From Verrucomicrobiales bacterium (GTDB lineage Bacteria > Verrucomicrobiota > Verrucomicrobiia > Verrucomicrobiales > DEV007): a stretch of 64,000 nucleotides of DNA. The stretch is from the NCBI GenBank assembly GCA_028047635.1, contig JAOFXR010000011.1, positions 1 to 64,000 on the forward strand. Direction: 5' to 3'. Positions 1 through 45,849 of this stretch are shown piece by piece. The translations under genes and the position numbers were made by a program. Position 1 is the first letter of the stretch. Every line of letters starts with the position of its first letter. A model generated the notes under the pieces. The model made no database searches. It was not told where the DNA came from and saw nothing but the letters and a program-made list of their open reading frames with translations.

Positions 1-1437
1 GAGTCGACGGAGCCGGATCCGGAGAAGCGACTCGTTGCTGCGGTCAGAGTTTCGCTACCGAAGATTTCGGGAACCTACGGAATTGTAGCGATGCATGAAG
101 AAGCGCCTGGATTTCTCGTGGGAGTTCGGTTCGGCAGCCCTCTCGTGGTGGGTCTCGGAAAAGGAGAAAATTTCGTCGCCTCTGATGTCGGAGCGATTGT
201 TTCGCACACGGCTGATGCCATCTATCTTCAGGATCGCGACCTCGTTTGCCTTAAGGCTGATGATTTCACGGTGGAGAACGTCGACGGCGATGCGGCTAAC
301 TACGAAGTGAGCAAAGTTGAGTATACAGCCGAAGAAGCTGAGATGGGGGAATACCCTCACTACATGCTTAAAGAGATTTTTGAGCAGCCTTCTTCGATTC
401 AAAATGCTTTTCGTGGGCGTTTGGTTGATGAAGAAGCGTCTGCTATTCTCGGCGGACTGCAGTTGACGCCGCGCGAGCTTCGTGACGTGGATCGCATCGT
501 ATTGTGTGGTTGTGGAACCGCTTCCCACGCAGCGATGGTCGGCGAGTATTTGATTGAGCATCTTTCGCGAATTCCCACTGAGGTGGAAACGGCGAGTGAG
601 TTCCGATACCGAAATCCACCTCTCGATAAGAACACGCTTGTCTTTGTCTTAAGTCAGAGCGGTGAAACCATCGATACGCTCGCAGCGATGCGGGAAGGTC
701 AGCGAAAAGGACATCGGGTTTTGGGGATTGTGAACACGGTTGGTTCGACAATTGCCCGTGAGTCCGACGGCGGCAGCTATCTTCACTCCGGCCCGGAAAT
801 CGGAGTCGCGGCAACCAAGTCTTTCACGTCTCAAGTTACGGTGCTTACGCTTTTGGCTATTCTGTTAGGGCGAATGCGTCATCTCTCGGTGGATTACGGA
901 AATCGACTTCTACGTGACCTGCGCGAAATTCCAGCCAAAGTCGAAAAGATACTCCAGCAGACCGAGTACATTAAGAGTATCGCGGAAAAATACATCGATG
1001 TACCGGGAATGCTGTTTCTCGGACGACAGTTTAATTATCCAACAGCGCTGGAAGCCGCGCTGAAAATGAAAGAAATTTCTTACATTTTCGCGAGCGGACA
1101 TGCCGCTGCGGAATTGAAGCACGGAATCATCGCGCTGGTCAGTGAGGAGGTTCCAAGCGTGTTCATTATGCCGAAAGATTCGGTTTATGAGAAAAATGTG
1201 AGCACACTGGAGGAAGTGAAAGCGAGGAGGGGGCCTGTTATCGCCATCACAACAGAAGGCTCAACTGAGCTGGAAAGAATCGCCGATGATGTGATTTATA
1301 TTCCCGAGACAGCAGAATGCCTCACTCCGCTTTTGACCATTATTCCTCTGCAGCTCTTGAGCTATCATTTCGCAGTAGCGAGGGGATGTGATGTCGATAA
1401 GCCTCGTAACCTCGCGAAAAGCGTCACCGTTGAGTAA
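1..1437 (+). CDS. glmS: Glutamine-fructose-6-phosphate aminotransferase, C-terminal part (5' end outside window)
   Basis: Makes glucosamine-6-phosphate from fructose-6-phosphate and glutamine, the first step toward UDP-GlcNAc and peptidoglycan. The reading frame is open from base 1, and the ATG at 91 is internal: upstream codons already read GTYGIVAMHEE, the end of the glutaminase domain. PLVVGLGKGENFVASD closes the N-terminal domain. Two SIS sugar-isomerase domains follow: the first from about base 500 (LCGCGTASH, then SQSGETIDT near 655), the second from about base 1010. The C-terminus PRNLAKSVTVE is the family's usual end, contributing active-site lysine. The catalytic N-terminal Cys lies upstream of the window. 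Family assignment is certain from the sequence. Confidence 0.97.
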   Translation, partial: ESTEPDPEKRLVAAVRVSLPKISGTYGIVAMHEEAPGFLVGVRFGSPLVVGLGKGENFVASDVGAIVSHTADAIYLQDRDLVCLKADDFTVENVDGDAANYEVSKVEYTAEEAEMGEYPHYMLKEIFEQPSSIQNAFRGRLVDEEASAILGGLQLTPRELRDVDRIVLCGCGTASHAAMVGEYLIEHLSRIPTEVETASEFRYRNPPLDKNTLVFVLSQSGETIDTLAAMREGQRKGHRVLGIVNTVGSTIARESDGGSYLHSGPEIGVAATKSFTSQVTVLTLLAILLGRMRHLSVDYGNRLLRDLREIPAKVEKILQQTEYIKSIAEKYIDVPGMLFLGRQFNYPTALEAALKMKEISYIFASGHAAAELKHGIIALVSEEVPSVFIMPKDSVYEKNVSTLEEVKARRGPVIAITTEGSTELERIADDVIYIPETAECLTPLLTIIPLQLLSYHFAVARGCDVDKPRNLAKSVTVE

Positions 1438-1499
1438 TGATTTTAGAGCTGGAAATAGAGCCTGTATCATTGAAACTTCGAGTGAATTGAAAGACCAGC

Positions 1500-1973
1500 A
1501 TGAGAGAAGAAGAAGACGAGATCTCGACTGACACCGCACAGGGCACACCGATTCGACAGATAGCGGTATTCTTGCCGAATCGTCCCGGGGCATTCGTTGC
1601 GATCCTCGACTTGATGAAGCGCAATCAGGTCGTCGTTTTAGGGCTTTCAGTTCAGGATTCCATCGATAACACAGTGATACGGCTGATCGTTAATGATCAG
1701 GATACCGTGGAGACGTTGTTTATGGAGAAAGGGATCCCTTTCAATTCAACTGAACTCGTAGTCGTGGAGCTGAAAGAAGGCCCGGAGCAGATGCCCGACT
1801 GCCTTCGCCGTTTGTTAGAAGCGGAAACGAACATTCACTTTATTTATCCCTTGCTGACTCAGCCCAATCACTCGGCTGCTCTTGCGCTTTGTGTCGAAGA
1901 TAACGACTTTGGGAATGCGGTTCTTTCGCAAGCGGGATATAAAGTGCTTCGGCAGGAAGATCTCAGTCGTTAA
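1500..1973 (+). CDS. Tandem ACT-domain protein
   Basis: 157 aa. After a short acidic N-terminus, an ACT domain starts at IRQIAVFLPNRPGAF (about residues 18-85), and a second ACT-like half follows (about 92-152, FIYPLLTQPNHSAALALCVED). ACT domains bind amino acids or similar small ligands and usually regulate metabolic enzymes. No catalytic domain is attached, so this is probably a stand-alone ligand sensor. It lies 62 bases after glmS on the same strand and may be cotranscribed with it. Similar double-ACT proteins are often labelled acetolactate synthase small-subunit-like, but no ilvB is present here. The ligand cannot be read from the sequence. Confidence 0.85.
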   Translation: MREEEDEISTDTAQGTPIRQIAVFLPNRPGAFVAILDLMKRNQVVVLGLSVQDSIDNTVIRLIVNDQDTVETLFMEKGIPFNSTELVVVELKEGPEQMPDCLRRLLEAETNIHFIYPLLTQPNHSAALALCVEDNDFGNAVLSQAGYKVLRQEDLSR

Positions 1974-1991
1974 ACGGCGGGCGGGAGAAAT

Positions 1992-2792
1992 TTAAGTAGC
2001 GGCCTGTCGAAAAAGTGTTTCGACGACGTTCCTGACATACTGCTCGTCTGAGAGTCCAATCGTTATGTCTTCGGGGAATTCTGCCATCTCACGAAAGTAA
2101 TTGGCGAGTTCTTCAAACAATTGCAGGCGGGCTTTAGGCTCTAACTCGTTGCGACGAACGACCGCATCAAGAGCGATGCGGGCTTCGTCAGGAGTGACTT
2201 GCTGTCGAAGCCGACTTTCCAGATGAGGTTTTGCAGCAAAAGAATTTTCGTCCCTCTCCATTAGTTCGGAGAACTGGGGGGCTATTGACCTCGTCTCACG
2301 GATCACGAGCGTGCCGGCGGCAATGTCGCCAATACGCTGACATCGTTTAGTAAGGAGGCATGAGGTTCCACCCAGGAGGTAAAAATTGGAGGGCAGAATA
2401 TCCAGAAGTCGGAAGAGGTTTCGGATGATGACTTGCTTCAATCCCAGGGAGAGGCCGCGCTCATCGATGACCCGCAATTTCATGAGTCGTTTCCCCAAGG
2501 TCTGTCCGGACCAGAGCCACTCCGTAATAATGCCGTAGAAAATGGCGAGCGCGAACTGCGCGACAATCATGAAGCCGTTTCCGAAATCGGAGAGGATATC
2601 GCCTAAAACAGGAACCCCTGAAGCGGCAATACTTAGAAACCCCACTACCTGACTGATCAGCATCGTAAGCGCGAAGATGACGGCGAAATCGACAGCCAGA
2701 GCGAGGCACCGGCTTATCGGGCTCGCAATGGGAATCGTGAAGGAGACGCCTTCCGGTGTCTGAATGGTGAGAACTGTGGTCCGGCCGATCAT
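1992..2792 (-). CDS. RDD family membrane protein
   Basis: 266 aa from the ATG at 2792, chosen because it overlaps the stop of the upstream SpoIIM-like gene as ATGA; an upstream in-frame ATG at 2879 would lie deep inside that gene. The RDD signature is visible: Arg28 and Asp35 in the first membrane segment (SRCLALAVDFAVIF) and a later Asp in LRVIDERG. Hydrophobic segments lie near residues 29-52 and 75-100. About 80 charged C-terminal residues follow (VTPDEARIALDAVVRRNELEP), probably cytoplasmic. RDD proteins are small membrane proteins of mostly unknown role. In related bacteria RDD and SpoIIM genes sit beside MoxR/DUF58/BatA genes, which are absent here. Confidence 0.85.
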   Translation of the reverse strand: MIGRTTVLTIQTPEGVSFTIPIASPISRCLALAVDFAVIFALTMLISQVVGFLSIAASGVPVLGDILSDFGNGFMIVAQFALAIFYGIITEWLWSGQTLGKRLMKLRVIDERGLSLGLKQVIIRNLFRLLDILPSNFYLLGGTSCLLTKRCQRIGDIAAGTLVIRETRSIAPQFSELMERDENSFAAKPHLESRLRQQVTPDEARIALDAVVRRNELEPKARLQLFEELANYFREMAEFPEDITIGLSDEQYVRNVVETLFRQAAT

Positions 2793-3793
2793 GAGGAGAG
2801 TTCCGGTTTGCGACGTCCTGAGAAAGTGAGAAATAGAATCAACCCAAGTAGCTGAATCGCACCGAACCCAATTTTCCACGGATAGAATAAAGGATCGTGA
2901 TATTGCGAAAGAAAGGATTCGATGATTCCCGCCCAGACCAGCATGAGCGCAGCTCCTCCCATGAGGGTGATGAGATCTCCCCTGATGCGGGCGAATCGAG
3001 CACGCAGTTTCAGGTTTGTCCTCCAGCCGAACATGGTATGCGCGATAATAAATCCGGCTTGTCCCCCGATGAAGATGGCGGGCAGTTCAATCGAGCCATG
3101 AGGCAAAAGCCAGGCCGTTAGAAAGGTTCCCTGCCCATCGGAGATGTAGTCGAACATGACGATGCCAATGAGGGTGCCGTTATAGAACAAAAGGATGAGA
3201 GTGAATATTCCCCAGAGAAAGCCGACAACCATCGTCATGATCGTCACTTTCGTATTGTGAGTCATGAGCTGGGCCGAAAACTGATGCCTTCCCTGAAAGG
3301 CATCGAAGTCCTGCTTTTCCTCGCGGGCGACCCGTTTGGACGGTTTTTCGTTGAGGTGGCTGAACTGGGGCGGAATGAAATCTGATTTCAGCTCATAATT
3401 GTAATTTAAGGCGGTGGCTCCAAAGCCGGCGCCAATCCAGAAAGTTCCAATCGAGAGGGCGAATGCAATCCAGTGCCGGCGAAACGTAGAGGGAAAATTT
3501 CGGGTGAGCCATTGCCAGGGACGAAACCGGATCTTCTCGCCACCATCCTCATGCAGTCGGCTGTAAGCGTGGGCGACCAGGTTTTCGAGAAACTGGGAGG
3601 TTTCTGCTTCGCCAGCGAACGTTTTCATTTTCACCAGATCCGCTGAGGTTCTCTGGTAAAGGTAAAAGAGCCGCTTCGCTTGTTCGAGCGTGAGCTTGTA
3701 GTCGCTATTTTCGTCCTGAAGTCGGAGCAGCTCGGTGAGCTCATCCCAAAAAGGGCGCTCCTTAGCTACAAATTTGTCGAGGTCGAGAATCAC
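2789..3793 (-). CDS. SpoIIM/DUF95-type integral membrane protein
   Basis: 334 aa. A soluble N-terminal region (1-105) opens with DLDKFVAKERPFWDELTELL, the usual start of this DUF95 (stage II sporulation protein M-like) family. Several membrane segments follow near residues 110-130, 185-235, 250-275 and 290-330. The core motif NGTLIGIV followed by LLPHGSIELPAIFIGGQAG is typical. It is translationally coupled to the downstream RDD gene by a 4-base overlap. Despite the name there is no reason to infer sporulation: the family is widespread in non-sporulating bacteria and its function is not well defined. A transport or membrane-remodelling role is only a guess. Confidence 0.88.
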   Translation of the reverse strand: MILDLDKFVAKERPFWDELTELLRLQDENSDYKLTLEQAKRLFYLYQRTSADLVKMKTFAGEAETSQFLENLVAHAYSRLHEDGGEKIRFRPWQWLTRNFPSTFRRHWIAFALSIGTFWIGAGFGATALNYNYELKSDFIPPQFSHLNEKPSKRVAREEKQDFDAFQGRHQFSAQLMTHNTKVTIMTMVVGFLWGIFTLILLFYNGTLIGIVMFDYISDGQGTFLTAWLLPHGSIELPAIFIGGQAGFIIAHTMFGWRTNLKLRARFARIRGDLITLMGGAALMLVWAGIIESFLSQYHDPLFYPWKIGFGAIQLLGLILFLTFSGRRKPELSS

Positions 3794-12684: not shown

Positions 12685-13923
12685 TTACTCCTCAGTCTTC
12701 GTGGTCTTGAGTCGAAAACGTTTCAGCGGATGCTCAGGAATCGCGTCTTCCCCACTCTCGCTTTTGGCGGGGCCATCTGAGAGTGGTGGAACTGAACTAA
12801 CTGCTGCTCCTACCATGACCTTCGTGCCTTCGGCAGGTTCCTTCGTTACTTCTTCAGGGGGAGGGGGCGGTGGAGGGATCTTCACAATGATCTGAACCTC
12901 ACCGCTATCAACAGCGGAAGAAGACGCCTGTATTTCGGTGGAAACGCCGGGGAGATTGACTCCAGTCTCGGACAGTAGACGTTTCAGTTCGTCTGCCCTT
13001 TTCTCGCAAACATAATCATTGTAGGCGCCGGAGCCTCCTGAGGCTTTGATTGGCTTCAGGATAATATTGAGCCCGTTTAGTTCCGGAGAGGCGAGTGCTT
13101 TAGCGATCGCAGCGATAGCGGCCTCCTGATTGGCCTGAAGGAGAAACGCATTTCTCGAAAAACGGATTGAGCCCACCGCTTGATAGGTCGGTTGCGGCGT
13201 GGTTGCCTGTGCTTCGAGCGCTTCAAAAACCTGATCCGCATCAAATGTTCCCTCTTTTCCTCCGAGGGGCATAGCAATCAGCGGTTGCGCAACGAGAGGC
13301 GCCTTCTTTTTCCCTTCGAGGCGGTCGAGATCACTCAGCATCACGAGGGTGGAAAACCATTTTTCAAGTGGCAGTCCGGGCGCCTCAAACATCTCGGCTG
13401 CTGAAGGATGATACTCAAAATCCAGTAACTGTGCTTCTCCATCTGCGGAAGAAAGCGATACTTTGAGTTCAGGGAGATCGCTAGAAGGGACGATACAAAT
13501 GCGATTGATGAAGCGGCGCCCTGCCATGAGAGACTGAATCCGAATGCGCATCGCCGTAATCGTAACGATGCTGTCGGTGACTCCTCCTATCAGCAGATAG
13601 TCGGGACGTATCTCGATGCGGCCCTCATGCGTGGAGATGCCCAATTCGGACAGGGCGCTCTTGAGATCGCTCACATTAGGCATTTCAACCTCTGAATCAA
13701 TTTTGAGCCCCCTATTGATGATAGCGAGATCCGGACGCACCGATCGGACTGCATGGGCGAGTTGCTGACCGGTTTCTTCAGAATCAATGACTCCTGAAAA
13801 AGACACATTCCGATCGGTAAATCGAACTTCGAGAAAATTCTCTGCCTGCACCCGCAAAACCGATGCCATTCCGATGAGGAAAAGCAGGGTTAGATAGAGG
13901 GAGGTAGGAAGTAAGGCTCTCAT
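12685..13923 (-). CDS. Exported protein with BON-like and OmpA-like regions
   Basis: 412 aa with a signal peptide (about 1-27, ending RVQA). Residues 30-125 read like paired BON-type repeats (VSFSGVIDSEETGQQL, PDYLLIGGVTDSIVTIT). This architecture recalls OmpATb/ArfA, where BON-like repeats precede an OmpA domain. A later segment, about 250-330 (IRFSRNAFLLQANQEAAIAA, then EKRADELKRLLSETG), resembles an OmpA C-terminal peptidoglycan-binding domain, although the usual TD-x10-LS-xx-RA signature is only partly kept (CEKRADELKRLL). A proline run (PPPPPPP) and a charged tail follow. Probably envelope-associated. The homology is my reading of the pattern and a profile search is needed to confirm it. 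Confidence 0.6.
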   Translation of the reverse strand: MRALLPTSLYLTLLFLIGMASVLRVQAENFLEVRFTDRNVSFSGVIDSEETGQQLAHAVRSVRPDLAIINRGLKIDSEVEMPNVSDLKSALSELGISTHEGRIEIRPDYLLIGGVTDSIVTITAMRIRIQSLMAGRRFINRICIVPSSDLPELKVSLSSADGEAQLLDFEYHPSAAEMFEAPGLPLEKWFSTLVMLSDLDRLEGKKKAPLVAQPLIAMPLGGKEGTFDADQVFEALEAQATTPQPTYQAVGSIRFSRNAFLLQANQEAAIAAIAKALASPELNGLNIILKPIKASGGSGAYNDYVCEKRADELKRLLSETGVNLPGVSTEIQASSSAVDSGEVQIIVKIPPPPPPPEEVTKEPAEGTKVMVGAAVSSVPPLSDGPAKSESGEDAIPEHPLKRFRLKTTKTEE

Positions 13924-14036
13924 GAAGAGTCTTCTGGTATGGCGGAGGGTGAGAGGAGGTAGGTTTCTGAGGTATCAGCTATCGTTTTAAATACGACGTG
14001 AAGGGGCATCATGCCTCTTTCGGTGGCATGACTCAA

Positions 14037-14102
14037 CACAGTTATGACTCTGATTTAACAGGGGCGAGTCACATTGTTAACAGGGTTAAGTCGAGCGTTC
14101 AA
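14037..14102. repeat. 22-bp tandem repeat, about three units
   Basis: Units start at 14037, 14059 and 14081, each exactly 22 bases. Unit 2 begins CAGGGGCGAGTC and unit 3 CAGGGTTAAGTC; units 1 and 2 end in TTAA and unit 3 in TCAA. Unit 1 is degenerate (CACAGTTATGACTC). The same repeat occurs at 29071 and 45552. It lies just upstream of the decayed TPR-AAA+ gene. Confidence 0.7.
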
Positions 14103-14223
14103 TAGCGATGGGGTAGGTCTTGAATCCTGTTTCGAAGAGTCGTTGACGCGGCATAACCGTTTTGCTTCCCTGCTTGCTTGTAGCGGGGCTTTCGGTTTTG
14201 TTTGCGTAACTCCCTCCATACGA

Positions 14224-15403
14224 ATGGCTGATATCGAATCCCTCAAGCAAGCGCTCGCCGTTTCCCGGGACAATGTTCCCCTTCTCCTCATGCTGGGGGA
14301 AGCCCACATGGATGCCTTTTCTCTCGAAGACGCTCAAGGGATTTTTGAGCAGGTTCTCGCGATTGAGCCTGCGAATCCCATGGCGCGATTGCAATCCGCT
14401 CAACTACTTGATTTAAGGGGCCGCAGCTCCGAAGCCATCTTGAGGCTGGAGCAGCTCAACGCTGAGCAACCGGTCTTCGCTGCGGGGTGGTTCTTGCGTG
14501 CCTGGTTGGCTTTGAGTGAGGGCGACAGTAAAGGTGCCCGCGAATTTTACGACAAGGCGGTCGCGCTCGATGCTGCTTTGGCGAGCGATGACTTACTCAA
14601 GCGGATCCGCGAGGCAGGCGGGAGGCGAGAGCAGGCACCTCCTTCGAATCCGGAGCCGCAGCGTGGCGGATCCAATCAGGCGGGCGCTTTTTTTTGACTC
14701 TGCTTTTGACGAGGATGAATTTGATGAGGATTCTCTTACGGATGCCGCCGCGGAACTTGAACTCGAATTTGAGCAGCGCCCTAGTTCCGATTTTAATCAA
14801 GTCGGCGGGATGGAAAGCGTGAAAGAGGACATTCGCATGAAGATTCTCTACCCCATGGAGAACAAGGAATTGTTCGAAGCTTACGGCAAAAAAGCGGATG
14901 GGGGAGTGCTCCTCTATGGGCCTCCCGGCTGTGGGAAAACGCTCATCAGTCGTGCCACTGCCGGTGAGATTAATGCCCGGTTTATGAGTGTGGGCCTTCA
15001 TCAGATTCTCGATATGTGGATCGGGAAATCGGAGGAGAAACTCCACGAAATTTTCGAACTCGCCCGCCGCTAGGCACCAACGGTTCTCTTTTTCGACGAA
15101 GTGGATGCGCTCGCGGCAGACCGGAAAGACATGCGAACTTCAGCGGGGCGAACTTTGATCAATCAGTTCCTCGCCGAGATGGACAGAGAGTCGGCCGAGA
15201 ATGATGGCGTTCTCGTTCTAGGGGCGACCAATGCACCCTGGCACCTCGATTCTGCTTTTTTACGTCCGGGGCGATTCGATCGACTTATTTTTGTTCCACC
15301 TCCGGATGAGCCTGCCCGTCAGGAGATCGTGAAGATCATTGCCAATGGCAAGCCGGTTACCGGACTGGATCCTGCAGCGCTCGCGAAACGGGTGAAAGAT
15401 TTT
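14224..15403 (+). pseudogene. Broken TPR-AAA+ ATPase gene (frameshift, in-frame TAG, truncated lid)
   Basis: The intact relative would be a cytosolic ATPase with N-terminal TPRs and one AAA+ domain. Here MADIESLKQALAVSRDNVP (ATG at 14224) starts about four TPR helices pairs, running to a stop at 14695-14697 in an 8-T run. With one T fewer the frame continues into DSAFDEDEFDEDSL and the AAA+ domain: VGGMESVKEDIRMKILYP, Walker A GPPGCGKT near 14923. After FELARR a TAG (15071-15073) interrupts the frame, then APTVLFFDEVDALAADR (Walker B) and LGATNAPWHLDSAFLRPGRFDR continue in frame. The lid stops at LAKRVKDF, where the next gene is fused. Three independent lesions make a pseudogene the best reading. 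Confidence 0.82.
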
Positions 15404-24778: not shown

Positions 24779-24881
24779 GAGTTAGGAGGGAGGGGCAAGT
24801 TCAAAAGACAGAAATGACTGGCTTATACATGGATACTTAAACAGGGATACCTAATACCGCCGTTTATTTCAAAGAGTTCTC

Positions 24882-26385: not shown

Positions 26386-29028
26386 TTAAGCGCCTGTCTG
26401 TGAAGCACCTGCTGCGTCGATCTTGGACTGCTCGGTGTCAAGGACCTCACGACGGAGGTTGGTTCCAGACTTCCGTGCCCACCAGAGCACGATCGGTGCA
26501 GCGATGAAAATCGAAGAGTAAGTTCCCACGATGACACCAATGATTAGTGTTTCCGCGAAGTTTCTGAGGCCGGGGCCTCCGAAAAGGAAAAGCACCGTGA
26601 CGGTGATCAAGGTTGTCACACTGGTGAGCAAGGTCCGCGCGAGCGTCTTGTTTAGTGCGTAGTTCATGATGTCTTTCACATCTCCACGCTTCGTCGCGAG
26701 ACCTTCACGAACCCGGTCGAAGACGACGATGGTATCGTTGATCGAGTAACCGGCAATGGTAAGGAAAGCACCGACAGTTATGAGTGTGAACTCCTGTCCA
26801 AGAATCGTTGTGATTCCTGCGACGACGATGAGGTCGTGGAACAAGGCGGCAATCGCTCCTAGGGCGAAAGCGAACTCGAAGCGCAGGGTGACATAAATCA
26901 AGATGGCAACAATACCAATAAGGAGTGCGATACCGGAAGAAGTCAGCATGGCCTCACCGACCGCTGAACCGACTGAGCTAATCGTCGTGTCTTTCAGTTC
27001 TACTTTGAGATCTTTCTCAATCTCCGCAAGAATCTGTGGTGCCGTATTGTCAGGCGAACGGACGAGGAAGAATTCTCCCTCCGAGCCAACAGGTTGCTGC
27101 TGCTGAACGAGTGGCTCTCCTCCCAAGTCGAGATCAGCGACGGCATCTTTGATGCCTTGCTTTGAAAGTCCTTCCGTCGACTGAATCGTGATCGAGTCTC
27201 CGCCTTTCAGCTCAACACCGCGTGGGTCCACTGAGGGAACGATGATGAGCGATGCGACCATGGCGATCACTGAAACAACGAGACAGATTTTCCGCTTTCC
27301 GAGAAAGTCGATGATCTTGTCAGGAATCAAATTCATGAAGCTGACTTTCTTGAGAAAGCCGTTTTCTTTTCCAACGCCTGTTGCCCATGTGAAGCAAACG
27401 CGTGTCACGAGAAGTGAGGAGAAGAGAGTCGCGAAAATACCAATGATGAGCGTGATCGCGAAGCCTTTGACGGTTCCTGCAGCGAGCGAGTAGAGAATGA
27501 TCGCGGTGATCAAGGTCGTAATGTTCGCATCGATAATCGCTGAGAAAGCTTTCTCGTAAGCCGTGTCGATTGCGGAGCGAAGGGATTTCCCTTCAGCGAG
27601 TTCTTCACGAAGGCGCTCGTAGATGAGCACGTTCGCATCAATCGCGACACCAATCGTGAGAATGATACCCGCGATGCCAGGAAGGGTCAGAGTGAACTGG
27701 AACAGCGCCATCGTTCCGAAGATAATCGCGATGCTGATACAAAGACCAAGTAGAGCGAGAATACCGGAAAAGCGGTAGTAAATGACGATGAAGAGAAGGG
27801 TGAGACAAAGACCGGCTACACCAGCGAGAATACCTTGTTTTACCGTCGCGGCGCCCATCGTGGGAGAGATGAAGTTTGAGTATTCGATGTTGATCGGATT
27901 CTCGAGGGGATTCTCCAGCGCGGAGGCAAGGTTCTGGGCCTCTTCCTGAGTGAAGCGACCGGTGATCTGGAAATTGTCAGTGAGCGTGCTCTGAATCGTC
28001 GGGGCAGAGAGGATGATGTCATCCATGATGATAGACATCGGCTCTTTGAGGTGCTCGCTGGAGAGGGCACCCATAATTTTTGCACCTTCACTGTCGAGAG
28101 AAACCGAGATGGAGTGTCCGGAGCCGCCATAGATGTAATTGGCGCTCGTGACATACTTACCCTTCATGTCACGCTTGATTTTGACCAATCCGTAGCGTGT
28201 CGGAAGCGGTTCGCCTTCTTCCGTGAATTCCTCTTTGAAAGGGATCGCTTCGTAGCCGGGGATGACCTGAGCACCGCTCTGGACCTGCCCCGCCATGGCG
28301 TTGCTCTGTGGGTGCAGGATTGAAAATTCAAGTCTCGCGACTTTCTCGAGGACCGCTTCGATTTCTTTCAGTTTCTCCTTACCAACACCGGGCATTTGGA
28401 GAAAAATACCGTCCTCACCGGAAGGCGCGAGGATCACCTCACTGGTTCCAAGGTCATTGAGACGCTTGGAAAGCACTTCGATGACCTGCTGCTGAGAGTC
28501 GGCATCGATCGTCTTTTCTGCAGTAGATTCAATTTTGATCTGCATGGAGACACCGCCTTGAAGCTCGATGCCTTTTTCCATTCCCAGTGTGGAGTAAAGC
28601 CACACGCAGAGGGCCGTCACGCCAATCGCGAGGACGGTTCCGATCATGCGTTTCCGCTTCTGGATTTCCGCTGCGAAATAAGTCACGAAAAGGGCGAGAA
28701 GTCCCAATCCCACGAGAAATACGAGATTGGGGGAGACACCAATCGCTGCTGCGTCCTCTGCTGCAGGGGCTTCAGCTACTTCCGAACCGGGAGCCGGAAC
28801 GGTCTCAACTGCCTCCGTTGCTTTATCTGCTGCCTTATCGACGACTTTCTCGGTCGTATCCGTGACTGCCTTTTCAACTTTAGGTGCTGCCGTGCTGGCA
28901 CCGTCCTTGATGATGGGAGCGCTGCCGGTCTGGTCTGGCTTCGTGATGCCGGAAGCAGAATTAGAAGCGGTTGCTTCGACGCTGACTTCAGCTGCGGTGG
29001 TATCGGCCGTGGTTTCTTGATCTGGCAT
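26386..29028 (-). CDS. secDF: Fused protein translocase subunits SecD and SecF
   Basis: 880 aa, one polypeptide carrying both halves. The SecDF complex uses the proton gradient to help pull exported proteins out of SecYEG. An Ala/Thr/Glu-rich N-terminal extension (1-100) precedes the first membrane helix (about 104-122). The SecD part has GIELQGGVSMQIKIE (P1 domain start), the motif IPGYEAIPF, and IGVAIDANVLIYERLREEL. The SecF half starts near residue 576 (GKRKICLVV), with GGDSITIQ and AGYSINDTIVVFDRVRE. The Asp and Arg of both D-x-N/D-V-x-ER-type motifs are kept. The C-terminus lacks obvious extras. It lies in the yajC-tgt export/tRNA cluster, separated from yajC by the 22-bp repeats. Confidence 0.96.
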   Translation of the reverse strand: MPDQETTADTTAAEVSVEATASNSASGITKPDQTGSAPIIKDGASTAAPKVEKAVTDTTEKVVDKAADKATEAVETVPAPGSEVAEAPAAEDAAAIGVSPNLVFLVGLGLLALFVTYFAAEIQKRKRMIGTVLAIGVTALCVWLYSTLGMEKGIELQGGVSMQIKIESTAEKTIDADSQQQVIEVLSKRLNDLGTSEVILAPSGEDGIFLQMPGVGKEKLKEIEAVLEKVARLEFSILHPQSNAMAGQVQSGAQVIPGYEAIPFKEEFTEEGEPLPTRYGLVKIKRDMKGKYVTSANYIYGGSGHSISVSLDSEGAKIMGALSSEHLKEPMSIIMDDIILSAPTIQSTLTDNFQITGRFTQEEAQNLASALENPLENPINIEYSNFISPTMGAATVKQGILAGVAGLCLTLLFIVIYYRFSGILALLGLCISIAIIFGTMALFQFTLTLPGIAGIILTIGVAIDANVLIYERLREELAEGKSLRSAIDTAYEKAFSAIIDANITTLITAIILYSLAAGTVKGFAITLIIGIFATLFSSLLVTRVCFTWATGVGKENGFLKKVSFMNLIPDKIIDFLGKRKICLVVSVIAMVASLIIVPSVDPRGVELKGGDSITIQSTEGLSKQGIKDAVADLDLGGEPLVQQQQPVGSEGEFFLVRSPDNTAPQILAEIEKDLKVELKDTTISSVGSAVGEAMLTSSGIALLIGIVAILIYVTLRFEFAFALGAIAALFHDLIVVAGITTILGQEFTLITVGAFLTIAGYSINDTIVVFDRVREGLATKRGDVKDIMNYALNKTLARTLLTSVTTLITVTVLFLFGGPGLRNFAETLIIGVIVGTYSSIFIAAPIVLWWARKSGTNLRREVLDTEQSKIDAAGASQTGA

Positions 29029-29070
29029 GGGAATCTTTGGGAAAAAGGGATAAACAGGACGGTGTCGAAA

Positions 29071-29158
29071 CAGGGTTAGGTCATTTACCTAACAGGGTTG
29101 AGTCGATGACTAAACAGGGTGAAGCCGTCGACCTAACAGGGTTGAGTAAAGTAACTAA
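29071..29158. repeat. 22-bp tandem repeat, four units
   Basis: Units begin at 29071, 29093, 29115 and 29137, each 22 bases, with a partial fifth at 29159. The consensus start is CAGGGTTGAGTC and each unit ends with TAA or AAA. Unit 1 contains the inverted repeat TTAGGT-CATTT-ACCTAA, and unit 2 the AGTC-GAT-GACT palindrome. The array lies in the 146-base gap between yajC and secDF, within an apparent operon. Confidence 0.85.
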
Positions 29159-29174: not shown

Positions 29175-29558
29175 TCAGGAATCGGATTCGTCTGACTCCT
29201 CGTCGGATGAATCGTTGTCAATAGCTTTACTATCTTTCGATGCTTTGCCTCCATTGACAGTCGCAATCGCGCTGCGGTCGAATTTAACGCTCAGGCCGTC
29301 TGCAATCTTAACGGATACGGTTTTGTCAGACTTTCCGGAAACGAGTCCGTGCATTCCGCCAATCGTTACGACTTTGTCGCCCACGCGCAAGTTGTCACGC
29401 ATGACAGCGGCTTCTTTCTGTGCCTTCCGCTGTGGGCGAATGAGCACGAAGTAAAAAAGGCCGAACATGATGAGCATGAGCGGGAGCATTCCGAAGGGGC
29501 TTCCAGCAGCGGCAGCTGGTGCAGCGGCTTCGGCGAGTAGATGGGTGATGTTTGTCAT
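29175..29558 (-). CDS. yajC: Preprotein translocase accessory subunit YajC
   Basis: 127 aa. A short N-terminal Ala-rich segment precedes a single membrane helix with the family pattern FGMLPLMLIMFGLFYFVLIRPQRKAQKE (written in part: PLMLIMFGLFYFVLIRPQRK, about 27-46). The cytoplasmic domain then has LRVGDKVVTIGGMHGLVSGK, also diagnostic. The tail is acidic (DNDSSDEESDESDS). YajC joins SecDF at the translocon. It lies 45 bases downstream of tgt and upstream of secDF, the classical tgt-yajC-secD-secF order. Confidence 0.95.
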   Translation of the reverse strand: MTNITHLLAEAAAPAAAAGSPFGMLPLMLIMFGLFYFVLIRPQRKAQKEAAVMRDNLRVGDKVVTIGGMHGLVSGKSDKTVSVKIADGLSVKFDRSAIATVNGGKASKDSKAIDNDSSDEESDESDS

Positions 29559-45520: not shown

Positions 45521-45551
45521 TCGGACTCGCCTATGCATCGGCGCGACCGAA

Positions 45552-45595
45552 CAGGGTTGACTCATTGGCTTAACCCTGTTGAGTCATAGACATGA
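45552..45595. repeat. 22-bp tandem repeat, two units, with perfect 9-bp inverted repeat
   Basis: Units at 45552 and 45574. In the second the first bases read CCCTG, the reverse complement of CAGGG, producing AACAGGGTT ... AACCCTGTT across 13 bases and a GACTC...GAGTC pair. The last bases overlap the start codon of the next gene. Confidence 0.7.
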
Positions 45596-45849
45596 ATCAA
45601 GGCGGACTGAACGAAGGGCAATTGACTGAATTAATCGAGATGCTGGAGCGGCGCTTGACGGTGATTGGTGATGCCGAAATGCGTGAATCTGATCCTGACA
45701 GGCAGCTGAAGGAACTGCAATCAGTCTCTGAAGCCATCATGGTATTTCATCAAGAGCACGAGGGGGCGATGCACAATCGGCTCAATCACTTTCTCGAAAA
45801 CTGTAGCTTCGACAAGGCGATCGCCTGGGCGCAGGAGACGAGAGGATAA
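45592..45849 (+). CDS. Hypothetical small helical protein
   Basis: 85 aa, mostly alpha-helical by composition (LTELIEMLERRLTVIGD, LKELQSVSEAIMVFHQEHEG). No membrane segment, signal or known motif. The ATG overlaps the end of a 22-bp repeat, and no Shine-Dalgarno is seen. It is close to another reading of short coding-like sequence but independent of the lipoprotein upstream. It could be a small regulatory protein. It could also be spurious, though amphipathic heptads argue for real coding. Confidence 0.55.
   Translation: MNQGGLNEGQLTELIEMLERRLTVIGDAEMRESDPDRQLKELQSVSEAIMVFHQEHEGAMHNRLNHFLENCSFDKAIAWAQETRG

Follow-up and report, generated by a model that had tools for sequence, protein, structure and literature searches.

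The region between yajC and secDF raises the question of why units of exactly 22 bp are repeated there and at two further, distant loci of the window, by which we mean the whole 64,000-nucleotide stretch of Verrucomicrobiales DNA analyzed here. The first-pass annotation had read all three loci as tandem repeats and had proposed either a protein-binding array or a mobile small repeat. We found the exact 22-bp units at all three places, with the limits of the underlying 19-mer sites slightly offset from those first given, and Pfam matches place the second array inside the yajC-secDF operon, as had been claimed. The tandem arrangement holds for arrays 1 and 2; array 3 is an inverted rather than a direct pair. 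The features are:

12685–13923, reverse strand: OmpA-domain gene (Pfam), neighbor of array 1
14030–14092, forward strand: array 1, three 19-mer sites (14030–14048, degenerate; 14052–14070; 14074–14092)
14227–14697, forward strand: TPR gene (Pfam), neighbor of array 1
26386–29028, reverse strand: secDF (Pfam SecD_SecF_C), downstream of array 2 in the operon
29064–29148, forward strand: array 2, four direct 19-mer sites starting at 29064, 29086, 29108 and 29130, in the yajC-secDF intergenic region
29175–29558, reverse strand: yajC (Pfam YajC), upstream of array 2 in the operon
45545–45585, no overall strand: array 3, inverted pair of sites (45545–45563, forward; 45567–45585, reverse)

The degenerate first unit of array 1 reads AACACAGTT, and the pair in array 3 is spelled AACAGGGTT...AACCCTGTT; a small ORF (45592–45849) begins 6 bp past the end of the latter. 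In total, the window contains 13 matches to the 14-mer AACAGGGTTGAGTC (at most three mismatches) compared to 4.7 expected, a number reached in none of 100 shuffles. A search of the window against Rfam matched only tRNA families. We agree with the earlier view that no coding frame explains the repeat and that it is not a CRISPR: the 22-bp period leaves no room for spacers, and the arrays are dispersed and hold only one to four units each in the genome of the window (G000) and in its relative G007.

Two further short sequences were observed in the window. The blocks CATCATGCCTCTTTCGG and TTGCTTCCCTGCTTGCTTGT...GGCTTTCGGTTTTGTTTG beside array 1 (14005–14030 and 14160–14205) are conserved around L208:7216 in G007, where the remaining intergenic region has diverged, and are possibly promoter elements. 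Between two divergent genes (24822–24854) lies a 14-bp imperfect repeat, CTTAAACAGGGATA, which shares AACAGGG with the unit, has neither its phase nor its arms, and is probably unrelated to it, or a relic.

Closer inspection showed that the 22-bp unit consists of a near-palindrome of 19 bp, GACYYAAC-AGG-GTTRRGTC, and a spacer of 3 bp. The internal inverted repeats described previously correspond to the palindromic arms of adjacent sites. The 3-bp centre is asymmetric and points either way (AGG or CCT); either orientation of the unit is tolerated with the phase kept. Hit-to-hit spacing is almost exclusively 22, 44 or 66 bp, and the estimate of two helical turns per unit was right, the period being 21 bp in one species and 22 bp in the others. 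Sites are bounded by GACYY...RRGTC or by GAYTS...CARTC, and the third box base showed no clear covariation from unit to unit. Information content is at background immediately beyond the 19-mer at both array ends; therefore, no longer element is attached. Two units per element are usual (44 of 53 elements in G007), and pairs in G007 are convergent (+-) in 24 cases compared to divergent (-+) in 2.

The family extends well beyond the window. In G000 (3.18 Mb, 63% complete), 44 matches to the 13-mer were counted with at most one mismatch, compared to 7 for the reversed control, and relatives likewise show a clear excess, which disposes of a chance occurrence at three loci. Of the 34 genomes in the genus, 27 carry a dialect-neutral two-unit pattern, as do 5 of 41 other genomes of the family (reversed controls all 0); outside the family, it was detected in 1 of 214 genomes of the order (control 0). 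Genomes without arrays include G016, G018, G021, G022 and G038. Four of the five carriers in the family outside the genus belong to a second genus, g12 (G049, G153, G196 and G111), with up to 203 hits, i.e. two-unit arrays, and one to g16. The 63 stretches returned by a scan of genome contigs are all Verrucomicrobiota by title. Since the set is limited to the family and patchy, the sites are dispensable within the order. A phage origin was considered and rejected: IMG/VR yielded 0 matches to the strict two-unit pattern and 3 to a looser one, for which a rough chance estimate is several.

The spelling of the unit differs between species, with AACAGGGTT, AAGAGGGTT, AACAGGGTACAGTC (757 copies) and AATAGGGTACAATC (268 copies, 21-bp period) as dialects. 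Exact copies of AACAGGGTTRRGTC number 250 in G009, 95 in G042, 88 in G006, 85 in G007 and 36 in G000; AAGAGGGTTRRGTC outnumbers AACAGGGTTRRGTC in G037, G015, G013, G019 and G017, at low counts; and AAYAGGGTACARTC is present in 757 copies in G043 and 268 in G041. The reversed controls paired with these counts gave 0 to 2 per genome. Overall, exact 14-mers range from 0 to 757 per genome and occur mostly as phased pairs. G041 is the species with the 21-bp period, and all 20 of its loci that were read (L324–L343) are direct arrays; inverted pairs, common in other dialects, are missing there.

Regarding position relative to genes, a point raised by the first-pass annotation, the elements are mostly intergenic, with an enrichment of about 7-fold in intergenic DNA. 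With genes taken from simple ORF calls, 33 of 53 elements in G007 are intergenic, whereas intergenic DNA makes up 8.8% of the sequence; in G000 the figures are 14 of 18 and 10.7%, based on stretches partly picked for hits. Intergenic elements lie between co-directional, convergent and divergent genes in 24, 9 and 1 cases in G007 and, in the partly selected stretches, in 10, 0 and 3 cases in G000. They are frequently found just past stop codons, many beginning at most 25 bp from one. Some copies are intragenic, lying in ORFs for the MutL linker, a chromate transporter, DXR, PRA isomerase and cytochrome-type proteins. The orientation of elements with respect to flanking genes is approximately random (11 co-oriented, 15 opposed).

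We analyzed whether sites are kept in place mainly in one genome pair and at two deeply conserved loci, on which the case for conservation chiefly leans. Contig C49 of G007 is colinear with the window at roughly 75–84% DNA identity (about 79%). All nine testable G000 elements, i.e. those with a sufficiently long orthologous region in the G007 DNA examined, have units at the orthologous place, and the reciprocal test gave the same result for 8 of 8 G007 queries from 7 loci; no whole element was gained or lost in these 9 + 8 comparisons. Array 1, for example, corresponds to a three-unit array at L208:7216. Across five loci at which the two genomes have largely the same number of units (L030, window 14030, L005, L220 and L006), 211 of 271 element positions (78%) are identical between G000 and G007, compared to 336 of 671 positions (50%) in the 60-bp flanks. 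The number of units is less stable, differing between the two genomes at window 29064 (4 in G000, 2 in G007) and at the L025 locus. Enrichment of elements in conserved DNA is weak (7 of 35 non-window G000 elements compared to 54 of 400 random fragments).

The first of the deep loci is the yajC-secD space, which contains units in G000, G007, G044, G002, G045, G005, G046, G043, G012 and G006, those of G043 being spelled in its own dialect; no units were found in this space in other species, e.g. G040, G022, G014 and G010. It is the only locus at which elements of G041, G043 and G017 could be paired with the G000 and G007 DNA examined. The second is mutL. Of 26 readable species, 20 have a paired site in the segment linking the MutL domains at a level reached by at most 5 of 100 codon shuffles, and 17 have one at the stricter level of at most 1 of 100. 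It was found in 18 of 20 species with genome-wide arrays compared to 2 of 6 without (one-sided Fisher P of about 0.013, uncorrected for phylogeny, the species not being independent). The boxes are read in differing frames among species (QQG or NRVQS); thus, conservation does not concern the peptide. The mutL sites of G041 and G043 follow the respective species dialect, while agreement between mutL and the genome in the C/G variant is imperfect (G014 and G045 are discordant).

The persistence of sites at fixed positions through long spans of evolution suggests a putative reader protein acting genome-wide. We propose, and give about an even chance to, the reading that the arrays are chromosome-wide double-stranded DNA recognition sites for a putative sequence-specific protein. 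The observations behind it are the usual presence of two sites per element, their exact phasing, the dialects, the kept positions, and a mutL site that is mostly absent where there are no arrays. One dimer of the putative protein would occupy each 19-bp near-palindrome, and adjacent dimers would bind cooperatively on the same face of the helix, because neighboring sites are about two helical turns apart. The role may be played out at the scale of the chromosome, in nucleoid organization, in control of segregation or division, or in the marking of self DNA; we favor this over local promoter control because the sites lie after stop codons, between convergent genes and within genes, and rarely between divergent ones (in G007). 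Between the two possibilities originally raised, we thus favor maintained, putative binding sites over a currently mobile repeat, given the orthologous positions, the slower divergence than in the flanks, the association of the mutL site with arrays, and the strict helical phasing.

The main rival, which we consider unlikely but serious, is a REP-like mobile or selfish palindromic repeat, copied by a putative transposase and tolerated behind stop codons and within protein linkers. REPs lie past the ends of ORFs, where the neighboring genes are co-directional or convergent, and commonly form dimers of opposite orientation; some lie inside DNA-repair genes, some families are confined to the core genome, and Opitutus terrae is a REP-rich Verrucomicrobium (PMC3733652). 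This genomic habit is common to REPs and the present elements; the frequent position behind stop codons and the surplus of inverted pairs also fit REP-like elements. The wide differences in copy number between species and the changes in unit number between G000 and G007 would also be consistent with such an origin. However, the unpaired GTAG or CGTC tetranucleotide of the REP stem end is missing: sites end in RRGTC or CARTC, with near-zero information outside the 19-mer. Neither G009, which has the highest AACAGGGTT count, nor G002 has a Y1_Tnp (PF01797) match that would point to a RAYT, both assemblies being incomplete; Y1_Tnp is present in other genomes, unrelated to repeat copy number. The lack of gain or loss between orthologs, the slow divergence of the elements and the persistence of the mutL site across the genus likewise argue against current mobility. 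A REP-like process may nevertheless have been the route by which sites first spread.

A selected, self-recognizing role in DNA uptake, in which sites would be bound by a putative competence receptor and kept and homogenized by biased uptake and recombination, appears quite improbable to us, although several observations are in line with it. Dialects of DNA uptake sequences have been described in Neisseriaceae (PMC3630211), and the present repeat shows species dialects as well: in G043 both the mutL and the yajC-secD units are spelled in dialect, and in G041 the mutL units are. The mutL site itself lies in a permissive linker of a genome-maintenance gene. ComEC was found in 24 of 24 near-complete genomes, but it is also present in G016, which has no arrays, and therefore does not discriminate; its ubiquity permits an uptake role without supporting one. 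For most Neisseria, reported counts of the 10-mer run from 943 to 3236 in each genome (PMC3630211); copy number here is lower by several-fold or more, in larger genomes. A search of the open-access literature on Verrucomicrobia returned no paper on uptake sequences or on this repeat. To our knowledge, uptake sequences described so far do not come in strictly phased paired arrays.

Selection for folding after transcription, as an RNA hairpin or 3'-UTR element that stabilizes or terminates mRNAs, is very improbable. The elements do often lie just past stop codons, and inverted pairs could form a long hairpin. However, stem pairing was observed in 1910 of 2831 cases compared to 1959 expected under independent sides (the set having some direct arrays among its members), the RR and YY positions on the two sides of the spacer change independently of each other, the same phase is kept in direct arrays, and no Rfam match was obtained. 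Given no excess pairing, independent RR and YY, and nearly random orientation relative to genes, neither RNA nor cruciform folding is supported.

Scarcely credible, and already contradicted by the dialects, is a scattering of integron-related core sites by an integron integrase. The arms do fit what we take to be the degenerate core-site consensus (RYYYAAC ... GTTRRRY), and 20 of the 34 genus genomes have integron integrases that exceed the TIGR02249 cut-off. However, the G041/G043 dialect (GTACARTC) does not match the core site, and the short integrase loci that we searched contained no attC-like site whose ends match. The units, which are not integron attC sites, have neither L boxes nor cassettes between them, and integrase presence is unrelated to copy number (G012 has many sites and no integrase above cut-off, whereas G001, G008, G010 and G037 have full integrases and few sites). 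The genus as such is integron-rich, with integrase loci such as L124, L125, L126 and L129.

Returning to maintained recognition sites, we tentatively extend this reading to a genome-wide recognition system of the PVC superphylum with species dialects, in which a putative new protein would read phased paired palindromes and sites would decay upon loss of the system; it could represent either an uptake-type self-code outside Neisseriaceae and Pasteurellaceae or a new chromosome organizer. Dispersed short palindromes are usually dismissed as REP clutter; the fixed positions, the strict two-turn phase and the shifting dialects point to a trans-acting reader, and relatives with none, tens or hundreds of copies provide a natural series for finding it. 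A competence receptor as the reader would extend uptake-sequence systems beyond the two classic families; a nucleoid protein in that role would have a target code directly readable from genomes.

Among known systems, the repeat resembles REP/BIME elements in its short palindromic units, hundreds of copies, dimers of opposite orientation, location after stop codons, family-specific variants and occasional intragenic copies, DNA repair genes included. The REP pattern of location is matched by the G007 elements; those of G000 are distributed as given above. It differs in the 19-bp palindrome with an asymmetric 3-bp centre, in the rigid 22- or 21-bp phasing, and in positions and units that are kept at about 79% DNA identity, with dialects at orthologous sites. 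With the DUS of Neisseriaceae and the USS of Pasteurellaceae it shares the dispersed and family-limited distribution, the species dialects, and copies that lie in permissive coding stretches as well as within a genome-maintenance gene; in contrast to these, copies are fewer and the sites are compound, paired over 41 bp and helically phased. Noc, SlmA and MatP are sequence-specific proteins on dispersed palindromic chromosomal sites (NBS, SBS and matS, respectively). Their sites are likewise palindromes scattered over the chromosome, whereas those described here are far more numerous, form tandem phased arrays and come in dialects.
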